From: a virus
Length of the DNA: 37,400 nt
Virus record (IMG/VR): IMGVR_UViG_3300017527_000241
Coordinates: 1-37,400 of that record
Reading direction: 5' to 3' (one strand)
Each line of letters starts with the position of its first letter. Positions within the stretch are counted from its first letter, which is position 1. The position numbers were made by a program, and so were the translations under genes. Positions 3,568 to 28,127 of this stretch are shown here, one piece after another. Under the pieces are notes generated by a model. It was not told the origin of the DNA. It saw only the letters and a program-made list of their open reading frames with translations, and did not search any database.

Positions 3568-3923
3568 ATTTTTTTCCATATTCCTGGATGTTTTCTGGTA
3601 GCTGGAATTCTTTCTAGTGAAAAAGAAGATCCACCTAAAGATAGAGTAGTACCATTCCAAACATAATCAGTCATATTCAAATCTACTTCTTCAATTATAG
3701 CGGCATCAAATTCTTCATTGTTATTAAAAGAAGTGGAAGAAATTTTTAGATTAGTCCAAACAAGCTTTTCTCTGGTATTGATCTCCATTAGCCCTATCTC
3801 AAGACCACGTATTTCAGCGGTATGATCAATACGTATAAATTTAACTACACCAAAGGTAGTTACTATACCTAGTATGATCATAACTGCTATAAGCTCTATA
3901 AGAGTAAAGCCTTTATTATTCAT
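3564..3923 (-). CDS. Type IV pseudopilin-like protein
   Basis: A 119 aa protein whose N-terminus is a textbook prepilin signal: MNNKG then FTLIELIAVMIILGIV. The prepilin peptidase site would be after Gly5, with Phe+1 and Glu+5 in place, followed by a hydrophobic helix to about residue 30. The remainder resembles a small globular pseudopilin head with no obvious cysteines. Type II pseudopilins build secretion or competence pseudopili in bacteria; a phage copy could enter or jam the host assembly. The start is translationally coupled to the upstream 45 aa gene (TAATG). Confidence 0.75.
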   Translation of the reverse strand: MNNKGFTLIELIAVMIILGIVTTFGVVKFIRIDHTAEIRGLEIGLMEINTREKLVWTNLKISSTSFNNNEEFDAAIIEEVDLNMTDYVWNGTTLSLGGSSFSLERIPATRKHPGIWKKI

Positions 3924-4060
3924 TAGAACCCTGTAATGATAACGGTATAATGGTTAGTTAAATCATCCAACTGATAAGCCATTCCTTCTCTGGTCAATTG
4001 AGCAACGTAGATAGCTAGTAACTTGACACCTTCATCTGTTTTCTGAAATTTTGCTTTCAT
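3923..4060 (-). CDS. Small 45 aa protein
   Basis: The gene has a GAGGAG ribosome site lying in the end of the preceding gene and ends in a TAATG junction with the pseudopilin start. The product begins MKAKFQKTDEGVKLL and reads like a compact alpha/beta peptide, with no membrane segment. It is not recognised. The tight coupling on both sides is the main support. Confidence 0.7.
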   Translation of the reverse strand: MKAKFQKTDEGVKLLAIYVAQLTREGMAYQLDDLTNHYTVIITGF

Positions 4061-4063
4061 GGA

Positions 4064-4519
4064 TTAAATCTCCTCTTCGTCTTCGTTTTCGATATCAGTT
4101 AATGGGGAATCACAATTAAAGCATCTACCGTTATTTGAAATTTTCTCTAATTTGTTTGATCTTAATCCACATACAGCACATTCATAAGGAAAATTTATTT
4201 CTATATCTTCTGGAGTTCTTCCTACTACCATAGCGCCAGGAAGATTTAAATCTTTTAATTTTTTTATTGAATCTAATAGGAGTTTATTTGTATTCTCCAT
4301 ATTATCTACTACCAAAACTTTTTTCTCTTCTTCGTCCTCTGGCCCATTTATATATTCTTCCCATTGTTCCTTATTATAGTATTTGCCTTTGAACCAATGG
4401 GCTTTACAATTTGGACAAAAGAAATGTTCTATATGTTTTTCGTCACCGAAAGACCATGTAGTAAAGTCTATTTTTCTTTTATGTTTACAAGCTTCTGGTT
4501 TTTTATCCATCCAATCCAT
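4064..4519 (-). CDS. Zinc-ribbon protein, 151 aa
   Basis: Two separate cysteine pairs sets are visible: C-K-H near residue 11 with CPNC near 35, and CAVC near 114 with CFNC near 133. These suggest two zinc ribbons joined by an acidic helical linker with an EDEEEKK stretch. The last residues are strongly acidic. A GGAG site precedes the ATG. Zinc ribbons usually bind nucleic acid or protein; the target is unknown. Cotranscribed with the neighbouring small genes. Confidence 0.7.
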   Translation of the reverse strand: MDWMDKKPEACKHKRKIDFTTWSFGDEKHIEHFFCPNCKAHWFKGKYYNKEQWEEYINGPEDEEEKKVLVVDNMENTNKLLLDSIKKLKDLNLPGAMVVGRTPEDIEINFPYECAVCGLRSNKLEKISNNGRCFNCDSPLTDIENEDEEEI

Positions 4520-6875: not shown

Positions 6876-8654
6876 TTAAAATCCAGCCCCATTTCCAAAC
6901 ATTCCAGGCGCATCGGATTCATCTGGTATTTGAGTATCAGGAGATCCTGGAGCCGTACCACCACCAGCATTACCACCAAGAGCTATTGCCATAGCGTCAC
7001 CTTGTTGTTTGGATAATTTCTTTTGTTCTTCAATTTGTTTTTCAGTTTGTTTTTCAATAGCATCAGTAATACCAGCATTGGCGTTTCTCATCTTTTCATC
7101 ATACATAGCGGCTTCCGCTTGAGTTACTTGCATAAAGTCATTTGACGCTGGAGCCATAGGAGTATTACTATTACTTTCAGGTGAATCGAATTCTATTCCG
7201 AACCACTCAAGAAGACCTTTAAATTTATCAATTAACATTTCAAAAAAAGCTCCAAAAGCAGTAAAGAATTGAACTATATTTTCTTGCATTGATTCTGGTA
7301 AAAGCCCTGCTATAGTCATGAACATTGATTTTATTCCATCAAAAAATCCTTTAACTCCTCCGATAAGCTTATCCAAAATATTTCCTTCCGTACTAAAGAA
7401 TCCTTCAAAAAATCCAAGTATAGGTTTTAACCATCCATAACTAATCTCAAGAATAGTATCAATCCATCCCATTATTTTATCTGCTACACCTGTTACTTCT
7501 ACTCCAAATAAACCTAAAACTTTTTCTATTACCCATCCTAGTAATTTAACTGGTAATTCAATGAATCCTTTTACTACTTGTTTCAGACCACCTATAATCT
7601 TTTGTGCTATATTTCCTTCTGTAGCATTAAATCCTTTAATGAAGTCAATTACTGAAAAGATAATTTGTATAGGCCAACCTAACCATCTAAAACCCCATCT
7701 CAAAGCTGTAAAAAGATGTCCTAGTACTTTTCCTATCTTTGGAAACCAAGAAAGTAATCCCTTAATCATCTCTCCATACCAGAGAATTTTGTGTTGTATT
7801 TTAAATAATGCATTTCCAAATTTTGAAAAAGCTAGGAAGAACATTTTAATTCTAGCTAATCCTGCTCCGATCCGTAATCCTTTAAAAAGCATTTTAAACG
7901 GCATTAAGATTTTCTTAATCATTCCTCCGACTAATGCGGCAATTATCATACCTATAATTAACCAGAATCCTTTTGCCCCACCAGCGGTTTTACCCATGTC
8001 AACGAAATCTCTTTTTTCTCTTCTTCGCATGAAGTCAACTATTTTTTGTAGAAGTTGATTTCTCTTTCTATCCTGCGGTGGTACTCTAGAGAAGAATCCT
8101 AGAAAAGAATCTTTTATGAAATTAAATGCACTCTTAAAGACTCCTATAACGACATCGAAAACTTCTGCTAGTTCTCCCATTACTTCTCTTACTTGACTAC
8201 CTATTTTTCCGAAGATATTTTTTATTGCACCTATGACATGATCATTTACACCTTTCCATAAAGTTGCACCTAATCTTAATGTTGCTCCTAACATGGTTCT
8301 TTGTTTTTGAGCGGCATTAAACCAATCTTTTATTCCTGTACCCCAAGCTTTAGCTAATCCTCCCCATGTTACTTGATTTCTTTCGGTTTCAGCAAAATAT
8401 TTTTTTGCTTCCATTCCAATGAAACTAGTCATTGAGGAAACTTTTACAGTACGTTTTTTAAGATCATCTTTTTGCTTATCAACAACTTCTACCCATTTGG
8501 CAAGCAAATCCTTTTCTTTATTTCTAAGTTCTTTATCTTCTTTTTTATCTGCTTTGACTTGTGCTGGATTAGCACCATGCATAGCAAGAAGCTCAGATAT
8601 TCTCTTTACACTTTTCGCTACTTCTTCTTGTGTTTTTTGTTCCGCTGTAGCCAT
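6876..8654 (-). CDS. Tail tape measure protein (gp29-like)
   Basis: A 592 aa protein, close in length to T4 gp29 (590 aa), lying between the gp51-like and gp48-like genes as in T4. The N-terminal 110 residues are charged and coiled-coil-like. From about 225 to 480 there are repeated hydrophobic helices (WLIIGMIIAALVGG and others) separated by Gly/Phe-rich turns. The C-terminus is low-complexity and Gly/Pro-rich. Tape measures thread the tail tube and set its length; about 1.5 angstrom per residue would predict a tail near 90 nm. The start follows a weak AAGGAT site. Confidence 0.75.
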   Translation of the reverse strand: MATAEQKTQEEVAKSVKRISELLAMHGANPAQVKADKKEDKELRNKEKDLLAKWVEVVDKQKDDLKKRTVKVSSMTSFIGMEAKKYFAETERNQVTWGGLAKAWGTGIKDWFNAAQKQRTMLGATLRLGATLWKGVNDHVIGAIKNIFGKIGSQVREVMGELAEVFDVVIGVFKSAFNFIKDSFLGFFSRVPPQDRKRNQLLQKIVDFMRRREKRDFVDMGKTAGGAKGFWLIIGMIIAALVGGMIKKILMPFKMLFKGLRIGAGLARIKMFFLAFSKFGNALFKIQHKILWYGEMIKGLLSWFPKIGKVLGHLFTALRWGFRWLGWPIQIIFSVIDFIKGFNATEGNIAQKIIGGLKQVVKGFIELPVKLLGWVIEKVLGLFGVEVTGVADKIMGWIDTILEISYGWLKPILGFFEGFFSTEGNILDKLIGGVKGFFDGIKSMFMTIAGLLPESMQENIVQFFTAFGAFFEMLIDKFKGLLEWFGIEFDSPESNSNTPMAPASNDFMQVTQAEAAMYDEKMRNANAGITDAIEKQTEKQIEEQKKLSKQQGDAMAIALGGNAGGGTAPGSPDTQIPDESDAPGMFGNGAGF

Positions 8655-8664
8655 TAATTATCCT

Positions 8665-8862
8665 TTACTTTATATTACTGGTCGATTTCTTTAATGCTTT
8701 TTCTTCCTCTTGAAGTTCTTTGATTAACAGATTTATATAAATTTGTCTTTCAAAATCAGGCATTAAATTACTCACATCTGGACTTATATTTATTTTTCTC
8801 GCAAGTATATATTGTTCTTCAATTACACTTTTAAGATTTGTTGCCCACAGATTAATTAGGAA
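8665..8862 (-). CDS. -1 frame extension of the gp51-like gene (frameshift product)
   Basis: An open frame of 65 codons without a usable start codon at its head fills the gap between the gp51-like gene and the tape measure. It is in the -1 frame relative to the upstream gene and connects to it at a T-TTT-TTT slippery heptamer (8868-8862) two codons before the upstream stop. Shifted ribosomes would make a 313 aa fusion. The extension is helical and charged (for example VIEEQYILARKIN and LLIKELQEEEK). This matches the lambda G/GT arrangement, where the shifted extension of a tail chaperone precedes the tape measure. An internal ATG could yield only 32 residues. Confidence 0.65.
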   Translation of the reverse strand, partial: FLINLWATNLKSVIEEQYILARKINISPDVSNLMPDFERQIYINLLIKELQEEEKALKKSTSNIK

Positions 8863-20404: not shown

Positions 20405-22951
20405 TTATTCCCAAAGTGTAGACTTTGTAAGCCAACTCCAGTCATCTATATCATCTTCTATATCAGACAAGATACCCCACGCATCATTTTCATCCATTTG
20501 ACTATCTTTAAATTGCCAATCTTCTTCTAGTATATCCATTTGAAAAAGATAAGTTGCCCAAAATAAAGCACAAACTAAATCGTCTGGTTTATCTTTACCA
20601 AAAAATTTATTTTTCTCTTCTATGAATGATCCTAATTGCTCAATGGTTTCTTTGTCATAGAGCCGTACACTACCATCTTCGATTAACTTCTTCATTAAAA
20701 GTACTGCTTTTGGTTTTGTGTCTTTCTGTGAACGAACTCCAAGGCTTTTCTCTTTACTACCTGAATTGACTAGGTTTTCATTTTCAAATGTATGCCATAA
20801 TTGACTAATAACTGCGGCTCCTTCTCCATTGTTTTCACACATGATAAAGGCATTATTGAAGTAATACGATAACTTATTAATGATTTGTGCAAATTCATAA
20901 ACATCAGTTAAGTTATCTTCAAATGCTCCTATCTGTACTAAGTCTACAGGCATAACAGAATTTAGTTTAAAGATTTGAATACAAGAAGAATTTTCTCCAG
21001 TTCCTTTCGCTGGATCTACTCCCATAATATACCTTGCTCCGTCTTTCGGTTTCTCCCATAATCTAAGTCTATCTTGTAGATCATAGAAGACTGGAGGTTC
21101 ATCCATGCTCATTAATGTTCTTAAACATTCTGGATGAATGACTGTATTGGTAGATCCTAAAAATTTACAAGCATATTCCTGATTAAACGCTTGTATGCCC
21201 ATATTAGCAATTTCTGTTTTAGCCCATTCTTTGTCTCTGCCTGGAACCCTATCCCATATGACTTTATAAGGTTTGAACATATTATCACCAACTTGAGCTT
21301 GAGTCCAAATTCGATGAAAAATATTAAACATACCATTAGGAGTAGAAATAATTATAAGCTTTGATTTCTTAGAAGAAGAAATGGTAGGATAATTAGCGGC
21401 CCAAAATTCTTCGGCTTGATTACTAGGCACAAATGCAAATTCGTCACAGATAACCATGTTCATAGGCCAGCCCCTAAATGCATCAGAAGTAGTAGCTGAT
21501 ATGATCATGTTAGTGCCATTGTCAAAGTGTACAGAAGTCTTTTGATATTCCGTAACTCCAGGCTTTAGCCATACTGGAAGACTTTCATACATTCTTTTGA
21601 TTGTGTCAAGGATTCGTTTAGCGGAAGATTCTTTATTGGAAACAATACCTACATTCTTATCTGAATGGAAGATAGCATACCATAGCGCATAAGCCGCTAC
21701 AATAGTGGTGTTGTGAGTCGGTATCATTGTTTCTCCACAAAGAAACAAATGATCTTCATTATCAACTTGTATACATCTAACAGGAACAGAGTCTATTTTT
21801 TTAATATTTTTAATATATATTCTATTATTTTTAGGATGATTTTTACATTTTTTTTGTTCTTCTCTTTTCCTTTTCAGATTGAATACATAGAATTTTCTTG
21901 TAGTAAAAGAAATAGTATAGTAAATTTCTCCATCTATTTCTTTATCTCTTATTCTATTTTTTATTCCAAGAGAAGATAAAAGTTCTCTGACTTGTAATAT
22001 AAGATCATAATTCTTTTGGTAGAATTCACATGAACCATTTGAACAATGTCCATCTGAATCAAGCAATCCTCTTAAAAGTTGAATTCTTTGATATTTAGAA
22101 GCGGAAAAATATATTCGTGGTATATGTTTTTTGTTTACGTTGTTTATTTTCTTTAAATCTGTTATAAGTTTATAAACATTAAAATAACCACTATGTTCAG
22201 TCCTTTTATCGTCTTTAAAATCAGAAGTATTATATTTTTTTTCTATTATTTTTGATAGTTCTTTATAATCTTCATCATTAGTAGATATTCTACCATTTTC
22301 AGAATGACCATCTCCTAACCAAAGTCCATAAATATATGGATCAACGGGTAAATTTATTTTTTTATTTTTTATTCCATGATGATAATCTATATAAAGACAT
22401 TTATCTTTTAAATTAAATAATTCTTCTGTAGTTAAAATTTTTTCTAAATGTCCTATTCTTCCATTTTTTGTTCTTTTTCTAAAATAAGAAGAACCAACTT
22501 TCCATAAATGCTCTTTGTCTGCTATAATTTTTTCTTGATTATCAAATTCTATTTCATAACAATCATGGTTATGCATTATTTCTGTAGCAAATTTTACTTT
22601 AGTTGAGTTTCCATTTTTATCTAAAATAAAATCTCCTACTTTGATATCTCCCATAGTAGTCCATTTACCATTAGGTTTAGGTATAGGAGTATCAATACTC
22701 AAGGCTTTTCCAGACTGTCTGGCCCATAGACCAACGAAAAATCTATTCTCATCTAGTAATTTAATTGTCTCTAGCTGGTACTCATATGGATCAAATTGTA
22801 CTTCTCCAAAGTCCAACGTAACGATCTTTATATAATTAGTTGCAAAGTGGAGAATATCATCTCTACATTTTATTAACTCAGCTATTTGTTCTGGAGTATA
22901 TTCTAATTCCTCATTAGGACGTTTAACATAATCATCATATCGAATTGCCAT
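20405..22951 (-). CDS. Terminase large subunit (gp17-like) with intein
   Basis: An 848 aa precursor: residues 1-82 and 415-848 form a 516 aa packaging motor; 83-414 is an intein. The ATPase has Walker A ARQSGK-TT split by the intein, Walker B (MVICDEF, Asp503-Glu504) and IIISTPNG (about 533-540). The nuclease domain starts with MGVDPAKG (Asp646) and ends with DDLVCALFW. It cuts concatemeric DNA and pumps it into the prohead using ATP. The protein can work only after splicing, because the nucleotide-binding loop is interrupted. The ribosome site GAGG lies within a hairpin that also holds a late promoter. Confidence 0.95.
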   Translation of the reverse strand: MAIRYDDYVKRPNEELEYTPEQIAELIKCRDDILHFATNYIKIVTLDFGEVQFDPYEYQLETIKLLDENRFFVGLWARQSGKALSIDTPIPKPNGKWTTMGDIKVGDFILDKNGNSTKVKFATEIMHNHDCYEIEFDNQEKIIADKEHLWKVGSSYFRKRTKNGRIGHLEKILTTEELFNLKDKCLYIDYHHGIKNKKINLPVDPYIYGLWLGDGHSENGRISTNDEDYKELSKIIEKKYNTSDFKDDKRTEHSGYFNVYKLITDLKKINNVNKKHIPRIYFSASKYQRIQLLRGLLDSDGHCSNGSCEFYQKNYDLILQVRELLSSLGIKNRIRDKEIDGEIYYTISFTTRKFYVFNLKRKREEQKKCKNHPKNNRIYIKNIKKIDSVPVRCIQVDNEDHLFLCGETMIPTHNTTIVAAYALWYAIFHSDKNVGIVSNKESSAKRILDTIKRMYESLPVWLKPGVTEYQKTSVHFDNGTNMIISATTSDAFRGWPMNMVICDEFAFVPSNQAEEFWAANYPTISSSKKSKLIIISTPNGMFNIFHRIWTQAQVGDNMFKPYKVIWDRVPGRDKEWAKTEIANMGIQAFNQEYACKFLGSTNTVIHPECLRTLMSMDEPPVFYDLQDRLRLWEKPKDGARYIMGVDPAKGTGENSSCIQIFKLNSVMPVDLVQIGAFEDNLTDVYEFAQIINKLSYYFNNAFIMCENNGEGAAVISQLWHTFENENLVNSGSKEKSLGVRSQKDTKPKAVLLMKKLIEDGSVRLYDKETIEQLGSFIEEKNKFFGKDKPDDLVCALFWATYLFQMDILEEDWQFKDSQMDENDAWGILSDIEDDIDDWSWLTKSTLWE
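21710..22705 (-). mobile_element. Class 3-type intein with LAGLIDADG homing endonuclease
   Basis: A 332 aa insertion from Ala83 to Asn414 of the terminase precursor, ending PTHN before Thr+1. Position 1 is Ala, not Cys or Ser. The three residues that define class 3 inteins are visible: Trp two residues after the block B His (EHLW, Trp150), Cys at block F position 4 (VRCIQV, Cys393), and Thr before the final His-Asn (Thr412). Two LAGLIDADG motifs (YGLWLGDG and LRGLLDSDG) indicate a homing endonuclease. The region is more AT-rich than its flanks, consistent with separate origin. Confidence 0.88.
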
Positions 22952-22956
22952 AAAAA

Positions 22957-23013
22957 AACCTCACATAAATAAATATAATCTTCTTACTTATATTTATATA
23001 ATTATGTGAGGTT
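22957..23013 (-). promoter_or_regulatory. Long hairpin over the terL ribosome site, terminator-like
   Basis: The outer arms AACCTCACATAA and TTATGTGAGGTT pair perfectly, and the inner arms ATAAATATAA and TTATATTTAT continue the stem, leaving a 4-base bulge and a 9-base loop, about 22 pairs in all. On the minus strand the 3' arm ends in T-tract just before the terL ATG, so it can act as a terminator for the tRNA transcript. The terL ribosome site GAGG is inside the 3' arm. Confidence 0.75.
22991..22998 (-). promoter_or_regulatory. T4-type late promoter box within the terL hairpin
   Basis: Minus strand TATAAATA lies in the 5' arm of the hairpin. Transcription would start about six bases further on, in the loop, so the late message would lack the 5' arm and leave the ribosome site free. 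Confidence 0.65.
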
Positions 23014-23038
23014 ATTTCAAAAAGTTATTTCAAAAAAG

Positions 23039-23117
23039 CGGTGAATATCGGATTTGAACCGATGACTTCTTGGCTGACAACCAAGCACTCTTTCCAGACT
23101 GACTGAGTTAATCCACC
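23039..23117 (-). tRNA. tRNA-Asp (GTC)
   Basis: Acceptor arms GGTGGAT / ATTCACC pair with one wobble, discriminator G as expected for Asp. Anticodon stem CTTGG/CCAAG closes loop TTGTCAG, giving anticodon GTC. T arm ATCGG-TTCAAAT-CCGAT is intact. The D loop is somewhat long (about 14 bases). CCA is not encoded. Confidence 0.85.
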
Positions 23118-23120
23118 GTT

Positions 23121-23194
23121 TGGCAGGGGTAGAAGGAATTGAACCCTCACAGCAAAGATTTGGAGTCTCGCTGGCTCAACCTACGCTTACCCCT
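23121..23194 (-). tRNA. tRNA-Trp (CCA)
   Basis: Acceptor AGGGGTA / TACCCCT, discriminator G, and an encoded CCA end. Anticodon loop CTCCAAA gives CCA. T arm GAGGG-TTCAATT-CCTTC is intact. The anticodon stem has a mismatch at the outer pair and the D arm is short and irregular, so function may be reduced or depend on a phage-specific fold. Confidence 0.8.
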
Positions 23195-23273
23195 ATGCGT
23201 TCATTTTTAAACCATCATCGTACTTTCTTTTCTGAAAAGTCTTCGTATTTGATCCGTAAAATTTAAGATAAAT

Positions 23274-23516
23274 TTAAACAATTTCAAAGTCCTCTGGAAA
23301 GAAAGTAATATCAGCGGCTATTTCTTTTACACAAGACGGACATTTACTTCCTTTGTTAACTGGATCACGTTGATTGCACCATTTTTCATACTCATGAGGA
23401 ATTTTATGGTGACAATCCATAACACATTTATCTGTTTTAGGACATTGCCATAACCCCTTCAAGTCTTCCTCCATTTTCTCTAAATAACTAATTATTTCAT
23501 CATTATGTATAAGCAT
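23274..23516 (-). CDS. Cysteine-rich protein, 80 aa
   Basis: The start at 23516 was chosen over a longer reading to 23564 because AAGGAA lies just before it and it avoids a 47-base overlap. The product has seven cysteines in pairs (CPKTDKC, CVMDCHH, CPSC), suggesting two zinc sites or a redox fold. No family recognised. It sits between tRNA-Trp and the 65 aa gene. Confidence 0.6.
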   Translation of the reverse strand: MLIHNDEIISYLEKMEEDLKGLWQCPKTDKCVMDCHHKIPHEYEKWCNQRDPVNKGSKCPSCVKEIAADITFFPEDFEIV

Positions 23517-23517
23517 A

Positions 23518-23715
23518 TCATTCCTTATGTGCATATGCTGTATAGACTTTTGCGTTATAGTCATATCCTACTCCAATGCCTTTGACTACAAAACCAAGTT
23601 TTTGAAGTTCGCTAAAATCACCATCGGTTTCGGTTACTAGATATCCCTCACACCATTTTTCGCCAACTCCAATGTTAAGTGGTTTGCATATTTTTTTCCA
23701 TTCTGTTTTAGTCAT
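23518..23715 (-). CDS. Hypothetical 65 aa protein
   Basis: Not a recognised family. The composition suggests a small alpha/beta fold with a C-terminal strand pair (GFVVKGIGVGYDY, KVYTAYAH). A weak AAGAGA site precedes the ATG. Follows tRNA-Thr and runs into the Cys-rich gene with one base between stop and next start. Confidence 0.6.
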   Translation of the reverse strand: MTKTEWKKICKPLNIGVGEKWCEGYLVTETDGDFSELQKLGFVVKGIGVGYDYNAKVYTAYAHKE

Positions 23716-23740
23716 TTTATATATCTCTTTGTATTTTTTT

Positions 23741-23815
23741 TGGAGCCGCTGATCCGATTCGAACGGACATCCTGATCCTTACAAGGGAACTGCTCACCAA
23801 TTGAGCTACAACGGC
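23741..23815 (-). tRNA. tRNA-Thr (TGT)
   Basis: Acceptor GCCGTTG / CAGCGGC with one wobble, discriminator T and an encoded CCA. D arm GCTC-AATTGGT-GAGC is standard. Anticodon loop CTTGTAA gives TGT; the anticodon stem GTTCC/GGATC has one mismatch. T arm GTCCG-TTCGAAT-CGGAT is intact. Confidence 0.87.
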
Positions 23816-23846
23816 TTTTTAGGATTTCTATAACAATTTCTATGTT

Positions 23847-24071
23847 CTAAAATAACACCATTATTATTAGCATTAGGATGATCATGATATCCACATAATT
23901 GTATCCAGATGGATCTTGATACCAATTATAAAGATTATATGTCCATAAAATACCAATACCAATCCAAAATACTTTATTAAAATCTTTTTTCCATATCAAA
24001 TTGACTACATTTCCGATACTAAATATCAGAATAAACAAAATAGCAGATGCAAGAGCTTGTAATTTCTTCAT
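23847..24071 (-). CDS. Small membrane protein, 74 aa
   Basis: Three hydrophobic segments are visible: LASAILFILIFSIGNVV (about 7-23), VFWIGIGILWTYNLY (about 34-48) and VDIMIILMLIIMVLF at the C-terminus, so it is an integral membrane protein with very short loops. No family recognised. Its start overlaps the methyltransferase stop in ATGA. Confidence 0.7.
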   Translation of the reverse strand: MKKLQALASAILFILIFSIGNVVNLIWKKDFNKVFWIGIGILWTYNLYNWYQDPSGYNYVDIMIILMLIIMVLF

Positions 24072-24733
24072 TTAGACCTCCTAGAAGCGATTATAAGAGC
24101 ATTTTTCGGTGATAATACACTTTCGTCTATTATTAATCTCTTCTTCCCTTCTACAAGGTCTAAGAGGTACACACACCATGTTAAATAATTTCCTACCTTC
24201 TCCCTTATTGCATCAGGAAGAGAGTACTTATATTTTTGTCCAGAACAGCAAGGCATCAGAATTAAATGATCTGCTTTTGACTTATTATAGATTTCAATAA
24301 TTCTTTGAGCTAAATTTCCACATGGATGTACTCCAATAATAATAAAATTACTACGTGCTGGATGAACATTGTAGATTGCTCCTAATTCATGTAGTATATA
24401 ACTCCAATTTTCAGTTTTGATGTTGCTCTGGATGTACTTAAAATTTCGTATTAAATTCCATTCACGCACCCGAATCTGCTTATCTATAGCATAAGAGTTT
24501 AGATTAGGGAAGAGAAAAGAAGAAATGGTACTAGTCAAAGCATTTCCAGCGCAAAAATCGAATAGAGTATTTTGATTCTTATGCTTAAATACTATTTTCC
24601 GAATATGCTTTACTACTGCCATTGATTCAGTAATTTCCTTCTTTCTACCTGATATCGGATTAAGGATATCAAGGATATCAGGCATACAAGTCAATTCAAA
24701 GAATTCATTTATGTATTTGTTTGAAGTATCCAT
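24068..24733 (-). CDS. SAM-dependent methyltransferase (Methyltransf_32-like)
   Basis: A 221 aa protein with a Rossmann SAM-binding loop LFDFCAGNALTST (about residues 57-69) and an acidic residue at the end of the next strand (SYAIDKQ). The later motifs GVHPCGNLAQ and LILMPCCSG resemble the Methyltransf_32/TRM13-like pattern of HxCG and PCC. Such enzymes mostly methylate RNA. With three tRNA genes next to it, a tRNA target is attractive but unproven. Four bases separate it from the J-domain gene. Confidence 0.72.
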   Translation of the reverse strand: MDTSNKYINEFFELTCMPDILDILNPISGRKKEITESMAVVKHIRKIVFKHKNQNTLFDFCAGNALTSTISSFLFPNLNSYAIDKQIRVREWNLIRNFKYIQSNIKTENWSYILHELGAIYNVHPARSNFIIIGVHPCGNLAQRIIEIYNKSKADHLILMPCCSGQKYKYSLPDAIREKVGNYLTWCVYLLDLVEGKKRLIIDESVLSPKNALIIASRRSK

Positions 24734-24736
24734 ATT

Positions 24737-25105
24737 TTAATAATATTTGTTCAAATTGACTCCATTAGTTTTTTCCCACTCATAGCGTTTTTTGAAATCA
24801 GCTTCTCCAATATCCCAAAGATAACCAATTCCACCACCATTTAAATTAATTTTAATTTCTCCTATACCTAACGGAGCTTCGCTAGTAAAAGAAGTCGAAG
24901 CTTGTTTTTCTTTACCTTTACAATATTTTTTTAATTCGGCAAACCCTTCTTGTACAAATTCAAAATGCTTTTGTAATCCACCTTTATCTGGATGATACTT
25001 TTGACAAAGTATTCTCCATCTCCGCTTTAACTCTGTAAGAGAGAATTCTTCAAGAGGACATTCAATGCCAAACATTCTCTTATATTTTGGTATTAGATCT
25101 TGCAT
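24737..25105 (-). CDS. J-domain (DnaJ-like) protein, 122 aa
   Basis: Residues 24-60 form a J domain: a basic helix LKRRWRILCQKY, the invariant HPD at 38-40 within HPDKGG, and a following helix. J domains stimulate the ATPase of Hsp70/DnaK. The C-terminal 60 residues lack the Gly/Phe and zinc regions of full DnaJ and are unrecognised. A phage J protein may recruit host DnaK to phage assembly or replication. It overlaps the upstream gene by 13 bases. Confidence 0.85.
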   Translation of the reverse strand: MQDLIPKYKRMFGIECPLEEFSLTELKRRWRILCQKYHPDKGGLQKHFEFVQEGFAELKKYCKGKEKQASTSFTSEAPLGIGEIKINLNGGGIGYLWDIGEADFKKRYEWEKTNGVNLNKYY

Positions 25106-25353
25106 ATGAAAATTACTTTCCGTTTTGCTTTTTTACCCCTAGTTATAATGTTAAATCCCCAAGGAATAGGAGTATCTTGATTATTCTTTCTTGCTTGAGT
25201 AACAGACGGAAACACTCCAGCGGCAGTAAGTAAATGAGCCATTGTCCAATTTTCTTCAATGACTATAAACTCTTCTTCATCCAAAGGCCCAAAGAATAAA
25301 TCTTTGTCTTCTTCCGAAAGGTTTGGAGCTATGAAATTAAAAGTATTATGCAT
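25093..25353 (-). CDS. Hypothetical 86 aa protein, S4-like segment
   Basis: The N-terminal 35 residues are acidic. Residues about 36-84 (MAHLLTAAGVFPSVTQARKN, then a basic strand pair KKAKRKVIFI) resemble the S4 RNA-binding fold seen at the C-terminus of tyrosyl-tRNA synthetase. The likeness is modest. Next to tRNA genes and a methyltransferase, an RNA-binding role would fit. Two bases separate its start from the 46 aa gene's stop. Confidence 0.6.
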   Translation of the reverse strand: MHNTFNFIAPNLSEEDKDLFFGPLDEEEFIVIEENWTMAHLLTAAGVFPSVTQARKNNQDTPIPWGFNIITRGKKAKRKVIFICKI

Positions 25354-26636: not shown

Positions 26637-28127
26637 TTAGCCAGATTCAGTATAAGGATCACCCTTATAATTTTTTACGGCTTTATTTTGAATTGTGCTT
26701 AAATGAACGTCACTTCCCCATAGATAGGCTAAATGCTCAAGCGTCTTTTGTGTGTACTCTGGATCAAGATCCATTCCAACATGACGATGTTCAAGATGCA
26801 ATTGATTTCTACCATCTTGCACAACAATTTTAGGAATCCCTGAATGAGCAAAACTTTTGATTATCAATTTTCTGACTTCCTTTTTCGTCTTATCGGTTAC
26901 AACAATTTTTTCGGAGTAAGGATCTTTTTGTTTTACGTAAAGATAGAGTTCCAGTTCCCTAACCATTTCATTAGTTAGAAAATTTTGCATGAAGAACCAA
27001 TCATTATGAGTTCTTAAAATTTCAAACATTTTTTCGATACCCTTCATATCTCCAGTATCCCATTCTTTGCGCTTCTTCATGTTAGTCTCTTCTTCATAAG
27101 CGTCACCGTGTAAGCCCTTATCCCAACGCTCTACAATGTTATACCACATCTCACTACCTATCAGATAAGGATTCATGGAGAAAGGATTTTTAGCTTTGAC
27201 TAGTGAGTTCATGAAATTATATTCAGCATGTTCTTCGCTAGTCAAAAATCCTTCATTGAAAAGTTGTCTTAAAATTCTTTCATGCCAGAACGTAGCAAAC
27301 CCTTCATTCATATACTTTGTTTTGACATGGGGCCAAGTATATCTACCCTGATATCTTAGAATCTCAAGAATATCTTTTTGCCAATCCGACAACACCCTTG
27401 AGTTATCTATAACGAAACGGAGCATATCTTCTGTAGGCTCTACAGGAATCTTATTTTTTAGACCCATCCAAAGATTATGATTGTAAAGATCCCTTTCTAT
27501 TTCCGCTTGACTAGCTGGTGACTTATCAGTAAATAGATCATCAAACTCTGTAATTTTTCTTTCATGAGCTTGCTGTTTTTTCTGTTTAAAGATTCTTTCA
27601 CGTTTAGCTTCTTCTGTCTCATTGGATTCAAAAGGAGAAGAATGTAGAAAAATAGAATGTCCAGCGTCCACCGTTCTTTCCAGAATGTCTATACCATATT
27701 TCCTTTCGTAATCTTTGAACCTATGAGAAGCGGCAATGAACTTAGACACAATATCTTTATCTAGTTCATCATGATATCTATTCATTGTAGAAAAAGAAAC
27801 ATGTCCTACAACGTGAGCTACCACAAGAGCTTGAATAGCAAAGGTATTGTTTTTCATTAAATAGGATCTAGCAGGATTTGTAGTAATGACTACTTCCATA
27901 GGAATACTACCCATTGAATGTTCATAGATAGTTCTAATTCTTTCGTAGTCTCTACCAAACTTCCAGTTAGAAATCTGACCAGGCATACCATAAGCCATAA
28001 TTTCAAGCATCTTATTTTCTGGTACAATATCAAATTCAATAGGAACAAACTTCAAACCTTGCTCCTCTGCTATTTGATATACTCTTTCTTCTAACTTGAC
28101 TAGTCTTTGAAGATCTAATTTATTCAT
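26637..28127 (-). CDS. SpoVR/YcgB family protein
   Basis: A 496 aa protein (E. coli YcgB is 510 aa). Family blocks are visible: VEERV-type N-terminus, IQALVVAHVVGHVSFSTMNR near 130-150, YMNEGFATFWHERILRQL near 275-295, and NPYLIGSEMWYNIVERWDKG near 320. In bacteria SpoVR-family proteins act with PrkA and YeaH in stress and stationary-phase responses; SpoVR affects spore cortex formation in Bacillus. The biochemical activity is uncertain. It overlaps the YeaH-like gene by 8 bases and ends the three-gene set. Confidence 0.92.
   Translation of the reverse strand: MNKLDLQRLVKLEERVYQIAEEQGLKFVPIEFDIVPENKMLEIMAYGMPGQISNWKFGRDYERIRTIYEHSMGSIPMEVVITTNPARSYLMKNNTFAIQALVVAHVVGHVSFSTMNRYHDELDKDIVSKFIAASHRFKDYERKYGIDILERTVDAGHSIFLHSSPFESNETEEAKRERIFKQKKQQAHERKITEFDDLFTDKSPASQAEIERDLYNHNLWMGLKNKIPVEPTEDMLRFVIDNSRVLSDWQKDILEILRYQGRYTWPHVKTKYMNEGFATFWHERILRQLFNEGFLTSEEHAEYNFMNSLVKAKNPFSMNPYLIGSEMWYNIVERWDKGLHGDAYEEETNMKKRKEWDTGDMKGIEKMFEILRTHNDWFFMQNFLTNEMVRELELYLYVKQKDPYSEKIVVTDKTKKEVRKLIIKSFAHSGIPKIVVQDGRNQLHLEHRHVGMDLDPEYTQKTLEHLAYLWGSDVHLSTIQNKAVKNYKGDPYTESG

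Follow-up and report, generated by a model that had tools for sequence, protein, structure and literature searches.

A phage tRNA cluster whose tRNA-Trp belongs to a class with a rewired core

The stretch of DNA analysed here, hereafter the window, is a 37.4-kb virus record of IMG/VR (IMGVR_UViG_3300017527_000241, positions 1 to 37,400) that stems from a marine phage, has a G+C content of 34%, and carries a small cluster of tRNA genes ahead of the terminase gene terL. The minus strand holds 39 of the 41 picked open reading frames (ORFs) of at least 100 aa in the window. On it, a small protein of PHROG 11006 is followed by a J-domain-like protein, a Methyltransf_32 enzyme, a 74-aa putative membrane protein and tRNA-Thr(UGU), and then by two small ORFs, tRNA-Trp(CCA), tRNA-Asp(GUC), a strong hairpin and terL, which contains an intein (Table 1). 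The terminase is of the T4 type, and its C-terminal piece is 35-37% identical to cyanophage and Methylophilales phage counterparts, the best annotated matches. An earlier, sequence-only reading had placed the three tRNAs and the methyltransferase on one transcript. The three tRNA genes beside the methyltransferase gene are real, as attested by Rfam, ARAGORN, Pfam and the related loci; the single transcript is plausible, and we infer it from the shared strand and the lack of a listed terminator. A simple scan found no terminator-like site between 22900 and 26200; folding, however, gives a strong hairpin with a T run before terL. For the most part this region is an ordinary phage tRNA cluster; the feature previously flagged as a defect of the tRNA-Trp marks a structural class.

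The tRNA-Trp of the window consists of a 7-bp acceptor stem, a 14-nt linker that probably includes a D stem of 2 bp, an anticodon helix of 4 bp, a 1-nt bulge and another 4 bp, a variable region of 1 nt, and a normal T arm. ARAGORN misses the gene, and its Rfam RF00005 score of 26.8 bits lies below the gathering cut-off of 29, as does that of its relative in locus L010 (26.4 bits), the copies in L001, L003 and L009 scoring above it (31.6, 30.1 and 33.6 bits). It is 93.7% identical to the copy of L003 over 79 bp, and the copies of L003, L001, L009 and L010 align with it without gaps over 74 nt. In these five close relatives, the 20 helix pairs of the proposed structure form in 100 of 100 cells, and 10 of the 20 pairs have changed on both sides. 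Neither value was reached by any shuffle, and slid versions of the structure pair in 43-54% of cells; the count of further pair types was matched by 51 of 500 shuffles, and the remaining measures by none. L007 also has a rewired tRNA-Trp, scoring 81.7 bits with our model R1, with which the window gene, being among the sequences that R1 was built from, scores 88.5 bits. The earlier description thus correctly saw mismatches in the anticodon stem and a shortened D arm, and the covariation and the recurrence of the family make them features of a class rather than damage.

The columns of the 74-mer comprise the acceptor stem (1-7/64-70), the linker (8-21, 14 nt), two helices (22-25/42-45 and 26-29/37-40), the anticodon loop (30-36), a free base (46), the T arm (47-63) and the discriminator (71). 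In our mapping to the usual tRNA numbering, the extra pairs are roughly 24-47, 25-46, 26-45 and 27-44, with 43 bulged. Comparison of the sequences gives good support to a core in which the D stem has shrunk and its usual 3' strand pairs with the variable loop, producing a long interrupted anticodon helix. Across 26 Trp members, 94.9% of the cells pair (90.1% in the acceptor stem, 100% in the T stem), and no slid version of the structure does as well; the number of pairs with a change on both sides was matched by 42 of 500 shuffles, the remaining measures by none. Pair 23-44 occurs in this set as G-C (13), A-U (10), G-U (1) or other (2), with changes on both sides in 10 sequences, and pair 25-42 as U-A (11), C-G (4), A-U (3), G-C (3), G-U (1) or other (4), with changes on both sides in 11. 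In the full collection of 43 Trp and 15 Tyr genes, pairs 22-45, 23-44 and 24-43 form in 42, 41 and 41 Trp members and each in 15/15 Tyr members; the structure filter by which members were accepted did not require helix 22-25/42-45. Pair 25-42 forms in 37/43 Trp and 0/15 Tyr genes, and the textbook fifth anticodon pair, 25-41, is possible in 10/26 and 14/43 Trp and in 0/15 Tyr genes. When column 25 is left unpaired, as a small internal loop, all 285 of the 285 cells of the Tyr members pair, and pair 22-45 occurs among them as C-G, U-A and G-C.

Set against the cloverleaf, the window gene and its four relatives have the 7-bp acceptor stem and the 5-bp T arm with a TTC-A-T loop. They lack a D stem of 3 to 5 bp, only 9-21 and 10-20 being able to pair, and they lack a 5-bp anticodon stem with a free variable loop. 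The D arm is probably reduced, as far as the sequences tell, to pairs 9-21 and 10-20 with a 9-nt loop. Pair 9-21 is G-C or G-U in 58/58 members, the free column 21 being C or U in all of them. Columns 8-11, 14, 15, 17, 18, 20 and 24 were set by the search patterns, which makes most D-arm pairs constant by construction, and because columns 9, 10 and 20 were fixed in this way, only column 21 counts as evidence for the D stem. An alternative D-arm hairpin suggested by RNAalifold (8-10/15-17) was set aside; 9-16 is G-A in 6/58 members. When three members were folded singly, L001 did not adopt the family structure and the other two formed a merged long helix; the basis of the family structure is covariation, not energy. 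A structure scan that left the linker free, run on the gathered loci, also flagged ordinary tRNAs making three chance pairs, so that the short helix alone is not diagnostic. Many Streptomyces-type members (L041, L042, L048 and others) keep U-U mismatches in the acceptor stem while other pairs covary.

Published work is taken here and below from the available portions of the sources. The window gene shares with canonical bacterial tRNA-Trp(CCA) the CUCCAAA loop, G73, the acceptor identity pairs and the T arm, but its D stem has 2 bp instead of about 4, its variable region is 1 nt, and its anticodon helix is extended and interrupted. The tRNA-Trp(CCA) with a 4-bp anticodon stem (PMC13092985) has the top anticodon pair open, as has the window tRNA; the available text of that study treats the rest of the molecule as a cloverleaf and does not contain the word 'phage', whereas the rewired helix continues through the variable loop. 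A long or interrupted anticodon stem, a short D arm and a small variable region are also found in pyrrolysine tRNA (tRNA-Pyl) and in type I/III mitochondrial tRNA-Ser (PMC7609411). Yet those are described with 6-bp anticodon stems or no D arm, and the rewired class, which is of Trp or Tyr identity, combines at most 8 pairs and a bulge with a 2-bp D stem that retains GG. We found no description of this class among the open-access papers that our searches listed.

How widespread is it? A first pattern hit 5 contigs, and blastn with the 74 bases revealed copies in Streptomyces phages, some of them unannotated. A looser Trp pattern matched 41 stretches of viral contigs; a near-identical one matched 8 stretches in a genome set of 84,980 species, and 5 of these 8 pass, in tRNA arrays of metagenome-assembled genomes (MAGs) of three Saprospiraceae, one Lewinella and one Deltaproteobacteria. 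When the anticodon was left free, 40 stretches of viral contigs matched, and 67 after loosening. The structure filter was passed by 65 of the 67, of which 49 read Trp(CCA), 16 Tyr(GUA) and none any other anticodon, the failures reading UAU and GUA. These 65 stretches represent 36 distinct CCA and 15 distinct GUA genes. All sources together yield 58 distinct valid genes, 43 Trp(CCA) and 15 Tyr(GUA), 7 of which stem from the window, the genome scan or blastn rather than from the anticodon-free scan. The filter rejects 9 of the 67 distinct 74-mers from all gathered loci, and in the first round it rejected 7 of 35. In a midpoint-rooted FastTree tree of the 74-nt sequences, the Tyr members form one clade (support 0.975).

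Cultured carriers include the Streptomyces phages Manuel, Percastrophe, Annadreamy and Gilson, Citromicrobium phage RXM and Cellulophaga phage phi10:1. The feature tables annotate the gene as tRNA-Trp in Gilson and Percastrophe, and leave it unannotated in Manuel, Annadreamy, RXM and phi10:1. ARAGORN misses 23/43 Trp and 3/15 Tyr members, and therefore undercounts phage tRNA sets. Valid members that were scored with R1 reach 62.1-95.2 bits, and other tRNAs, mostly not inspected, up to 49.9 bits; the separation is imperfect, because a divergent rewired tRNA-Tyr of Annadreamy scores only 47.9 bits. This second gene (NC_048719.1, 71390-71464; L128) is unannotated, adjoins an annotated tRNA-Tyr and has a different linker. 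A relative of the rewired tRNA-Trp, 75 nt long and lacking an encoded CCA, lies in the 634-kb uncultured phage genome LR745206.1 at about 342880-342957 (L044 1496-1570; R1 69.5 bits). It was excluded from the 58 genes, as was a Tyr-like relative in L098 (59.6 bits). In a set of 60 genomes made up of one Saprospiraceae MAG and its relatives, scores above 80 bits occur only in that MAG and in one other of the five MAGs. Each of the five also has lower-scoring matches (27.8-44.5 bits), presumably in part their own tRNA-Trp. A plasmid search with the gene of L086 gave one partial match.

In bacteria, Trp(CCA) and Asp(GUC), and likewise Tyr, are single-isoacceptor families. The Trp and Asp genes of the window cannot, for this reason, add a missing codon capacity. 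The window tRNA-Trp has G73, the CCA anticodon, and the pairs A1-U72, G2-C71, G3-C70 and G4-C69, features that PMC9976931 names as bacterial Trp determinants. Across the collection, the discriminator is G73 in 43/43 Trp and A73 in 15/15 Tyr genes, and the Trp anticodon loop is CUCCAAA in 42/43, as in the tRNA-Trp of phage D29, and UUCCAAA in L052. In the tRNA array L049, of which a 13-kb stretch was scanned, ARAGORN finds 21 tRNAs for 19 amino acids, Trp alone missing, and the rewired gene makes 20. Phage RXM is reported to have no other tRNA (PMC8953757). These two cases, a sole Trp gene and a sole tRNA gene, argue for a working translation tRNA, and we infer that the rewired tRNA-Trp is charged and translates UGG. 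Tryptophanyl- and tyrosyl-tRNA synthetases (TrpRS and TyrRS) are described as the class Ic pair, and a plant TyrRS is described as binding a viral tRNA-like RNA whose free form is not L-shaped. By analogy, synthetase tolerance may lie behind the restriction of the class to Trp and Tyr identities.

Our preferred reading, to which we give slightly better than even chances, is that the phage carries its own tRNAs and that those of the Trp/Tyr class have a core altered so as to evade host tRNA-targeting enzymes. The cluster would supply the phage with these tRNAs. The 3' strand of the D stem pairs instead with the variable loop, which lengthens the anticodon helix to about 8 bp, interrupted by a bulge or a small internal loop. 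The acceptor end, the T arm, the discriminator and the anticodon loop keep a tRNA-like form, which makes use by TrpRS, TyrRS and EF-Tu plausible. Less surely, the altered core would have been selected for withholding the D arm and variable loop from the host enzymes. We regard as rather doubtful the broader proposition that the class, confined to Trp and Tyr in phages and tRNA arrays, hides its core from cutting or modifying enzymes and leaves charging and decoding intact. The interpretation offered in the sequence-only reading is partly supported: that the set may replace host tRNAs cut by defence nucleases is its better-supported half (single isoacceptors, the Trp identity set of the window, L049), and the half in which the methyltransferase would modify the tRNAs draws on the neighbourhood of the genes.

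The purpose of phage tRNAs was long unclear and is now tied to tRNA-cutting immunity (PMC10264068). The loop-mutated tRNAs of that study are, like the rewired class, phage-encoded and proposed to survive host tRNases; the route of escape would differ here, because the Trp anticodon loop is unmutated and it is the core that is altered. Septu and retron-Eco7 are reported to cut the variable loop, and the T5 tRNA-Tyr to resist them (PMC13096335). Under these systems the phage tRNA rescues translation, and its distinctive variable loop is reported to block cutting (PMC11555353, PMC13096335). We compare it from the published description; the rewired class, for its part, has almost no variable region. 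VapC52 is likewise described as cutting the variable loop of tRNA-Ser, and also the tRNA-Trp of phage D29 in vitro, a tRNA that scores as ordinary (39.6 bits). By analogy, an enzyme that cuts in the variable loop would spare a tRNA that lacks this loop, an argument that fits Tyr better than Trp. If the preferred reading is true, these tRNAs are hardened by their fold instead of by mutation of the anticodon loop, and the class, with only Trp and Tyr anticodons so far, offers a direct test of such hardening. It also bears on the tolerance of TrpRS, TyrRS, EF-Tu and the ribosome, and is relevant to the design of orthogonal tRNAs.

Several points weigh against a defensive role of the core. The anticodon loop is unchanged, and nucleases that read only this loop should therefore still cut. 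The variable-loop cuts described in these sources concern long variable arms (Tyr, PMC13096335; Ser, VapC52) and not ordinary short-loop tRNA-Trp. Under retron-Eco7, strong expression of the E. coli tRNA-Tyr was enough to restore infection (PMC11555353), and the T6 tRNA-Tyr is cut yet rescues once amplified (PMC13096335). The close relative L005 has an ordinary cloverleaf tRNA-Trp at the same place (Rfam 65.1 bits). The acceptor identity is not uniform either: G2-C71, G3-C70 and G4-C69 are all present in only 9/43 Trp genes and A1-U72 in 26/43, U-U mismatches occur at 2-69 in 12/43 and at 3-68 in 14/43, and the bacterial G1-C72 is found in 7/15 Tyr genes. The class could even be a structural variant that spreads without special advantage. 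Some of this would suit ordinary supplementation, in which the tRNAs for Trp, Asp and Thr top up a declining pool or stand in for it and the core is neutral, class Ic synthetases ignoring it. This explanation has a sizeable chance of being right, though we put it at clearly under one half. Demand on these tRNAs is ordinary in the window ORFs (TGG 179, GAT 579, GAC 146 and ACA 176 among 10,442 codons), overexpressed ordinary tRNA can rescue phages (PMC11555353), and L005 does with an ordinary tRNA-Trp where others have the rewired one. However, compensation of codon bias is inapplicable, since Trp and Tyr have one isoacceptor each, and compensatory changes have preserved the long helix in unrelated phage families and in both isoacceptors. 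The conservation of the linker counts for little, because the search patterns selected for it. That the tRNA-Trp is simply a decaying pseudogene might seem to follow from its low Rfam score and from its being missed by ARAGORN, but the acceptor, anticodon and T helices carry compensatory changes in the five close relatives and in the wider family; since the helices covary, this idea is refuted at the level of sequence and we give it next to no credence.

Two further proposals concern what else the tRNAs and their neighbour might do. The rewired Trp might read UGA, and the Tyr version UAA and UAG, as near-cognates, thereby extending phage proteins. The apical anticodon stem of the window tRNA has 4 bp with position 43 unpaired (C25 opposite U41), a tRNA-Trp with a 4-bp stem raises UGA readthrough in E. 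coli (PMC13092985), and the Trp and Tyr isoacceptors neighbour the stop codons. Yet UGA is a normal stop in Streptomyces phage Manuel (31/63 genes), and carriers of the window clade end 18/104 picked ORFs with it (window 8/47, L013 2/19, L022 3/24, L016 5/14), to be compared with 5/25 in L018, which has a cloverleaf Trp, and 26/130 in seven more distant loci. The methyltransferase gene itself ends in TGA, and the fifth pair 25-41 is possible in 14/43 Trp members. Readthrough is thus very unlikely, because carriers use UGA freely as a stop and a third of the Trp members can close the stem. We also consider improbable, though less so, that the methyltransferase modifies phage or host tRNAs and forms one tRNA-protection module with them. 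In its favour, the window, L013, L022, L016 and L018 each have both the enzyme and the tRNA cluster. A search of 20 more distantly related TerL loci did not reveal the enzyme; 10 of these loci extend 9 kb upstream of terL, and in those 10 ARAGORN finds at most one tRNA-Ala. The near relatives L015 and L017 are too short to show its presence or absence. In addition, the top structural matches of the predicted model include RNA methyltransferases such as TrmK, FtsJ, KsgA and METTL16. But the co-occurrence may reflect one ancestral event, small-molecule and protein methyltransferases match the fold equally well, so that the model singles out no substrate, and L005 has the enzyme with a cloverleaf Trp. 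Nor did the enzyme turn up in 11 other records, of which nine carry rewired tRNAs, an empty result that shows little. On its neighbourhood alone, a tRNA substrate is possible.

The methyltransferase (METHYLTRANSFERASE) is a conserved class I enzyme with the motifs DFCAGNALTS and MPCC kept. Its labelling as Methyltransf_32-like holds, with 48.7 bits against a Pfam cut-off of 27 (PF13679); we found no characterised close relative, and the TRM13 model is not among the Pfam matches listed. Relatives 64-76% identical are found in six IMG/VR loci, in the range L001-L007, and none in phage or plasmid collections. A sequence search of the PDB gave one weak match only, 6nkd ('Lip_vut3, C2L', E 0.0047). 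With an AlphaFold2 model (predicted local distance difference test, pLDDT, 71.8), structure searches indicate a generic Rossmann methyltransferase, TrmK (Z 13.8) standing amid many tied class I methyltransferases among the matches listed.

Table 1. Features of the tRNA cluster and its surroundings in the window.
Feature	Position	Strand	Basis or remark
Strong hairpin with T run, likely terminator or leader	22950..23020	-	Between tRNA-Asp and terL; -23.6 kcal/mol, z -7.17
tRNA-Asp(GUC), long D loop, no encoded CCA	23039..23117	-	Rfam 56.2 bits; missed by ARAGORN
tRNA-Trp(CCA), rewired class, 74 nt including encoded CCA	23121..23194	-	Rfam 26.8 bits, alignments, model R1
96-aa Cys-rich small protein, between tRNA-Thr and tRNA-Trp	23274..23564	-	ORF
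65-aa ORF, no known family matched	23518..23715	-	ORF and profile searches
tRNA-Thr(UGU), encoded CCA	23741..23815	-	ARAGORN; Rfam 57.5 bits
74-aa putative membrane protein	23847..24071	-	ORF; overlaps methyltransferase stop codon
Methyltransf_32 (PF13679) class I methyltransferase, 221 aa	24068..24733	-	Pfam E 1e-12
122-aa J-domain-like protein	24737..25105	-	DnaJ match E 3e-4, below Pfam cut-off
86-aa small protein	25093..25353	-	PHROG 11006 (function unassigned there), E 5e-7

The other genes of the cluster are shared to varying degrees with the related loci. L001, L003, L005 and L007 likewise have a tRNA-Thr(UGU) downstream of the methyltransferase. The tRNA-Asp is close to L010 4370-4444, with a 4-base AGTC duplication lengthening the D loop in the window. 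The putative membrane protein has longer homologues in L003 and L007, and the Cys-rich protein has homologues in five near-relative contigs (L013, L022, L016, L018 and L015). The J protein of the sequence-only reading does resemble DnaJ, though below the Pfam threshold, and is found also in relatives without the methyltransferase. The 'S4-like' protein exists as a gene, but its S4 label is unproven: beyond PHROG 11006, there is a weak match to a TyrRS C-terminal domain (E 0.087), no NCBIfam match, and a predicted model of low confidence (pLDDT 56). A pattern search of viral contigs found no relatives of this protein, though L003 and L005 hold homologues. In L001, its place is occupied by a radical SAM protein (3748-4506) with MoaA- and viperin-like profile matches, all those shown being below curated cut-offs. 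Between the J protein and the methyltransferase, L001 (4756-5988), L003 (4802-5989) and L005 (4901-6001) carry an ORF with a pilin-type N terminus that is missing from the window and L007. It is PilX-like by eye, the L001 copy has no NCBIfam match, and it may be a clue to the host or to interference with pili.

The hairpin before terL has a related sequence in L003 and is absent from the list of the simple terminator scan. The motif TATAAATA, which we take to be T4-late-promoter-like, also sits at 22950-23020, just before terL, with a similar sequence in L003; it is not enriched in the window (10 observed, 6.75 expected). In L005, a 349-aa ORF on the opposite strand (7770-8819) lies between tRNA-Trp and terL. 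The terL gene of the window (20405-22951) has a LAGLIDADG-type intein in the Walker A region, with a profile match at residues 291-348, and the terL ORFs of L001, L003, L005 and L007, about 516-522 aa long, are without it. Finally, a window gene of 496 aa (26637-28127) has a counterpart of 874 aa in L001 (171-2795), whose insert is intein-like by eye.

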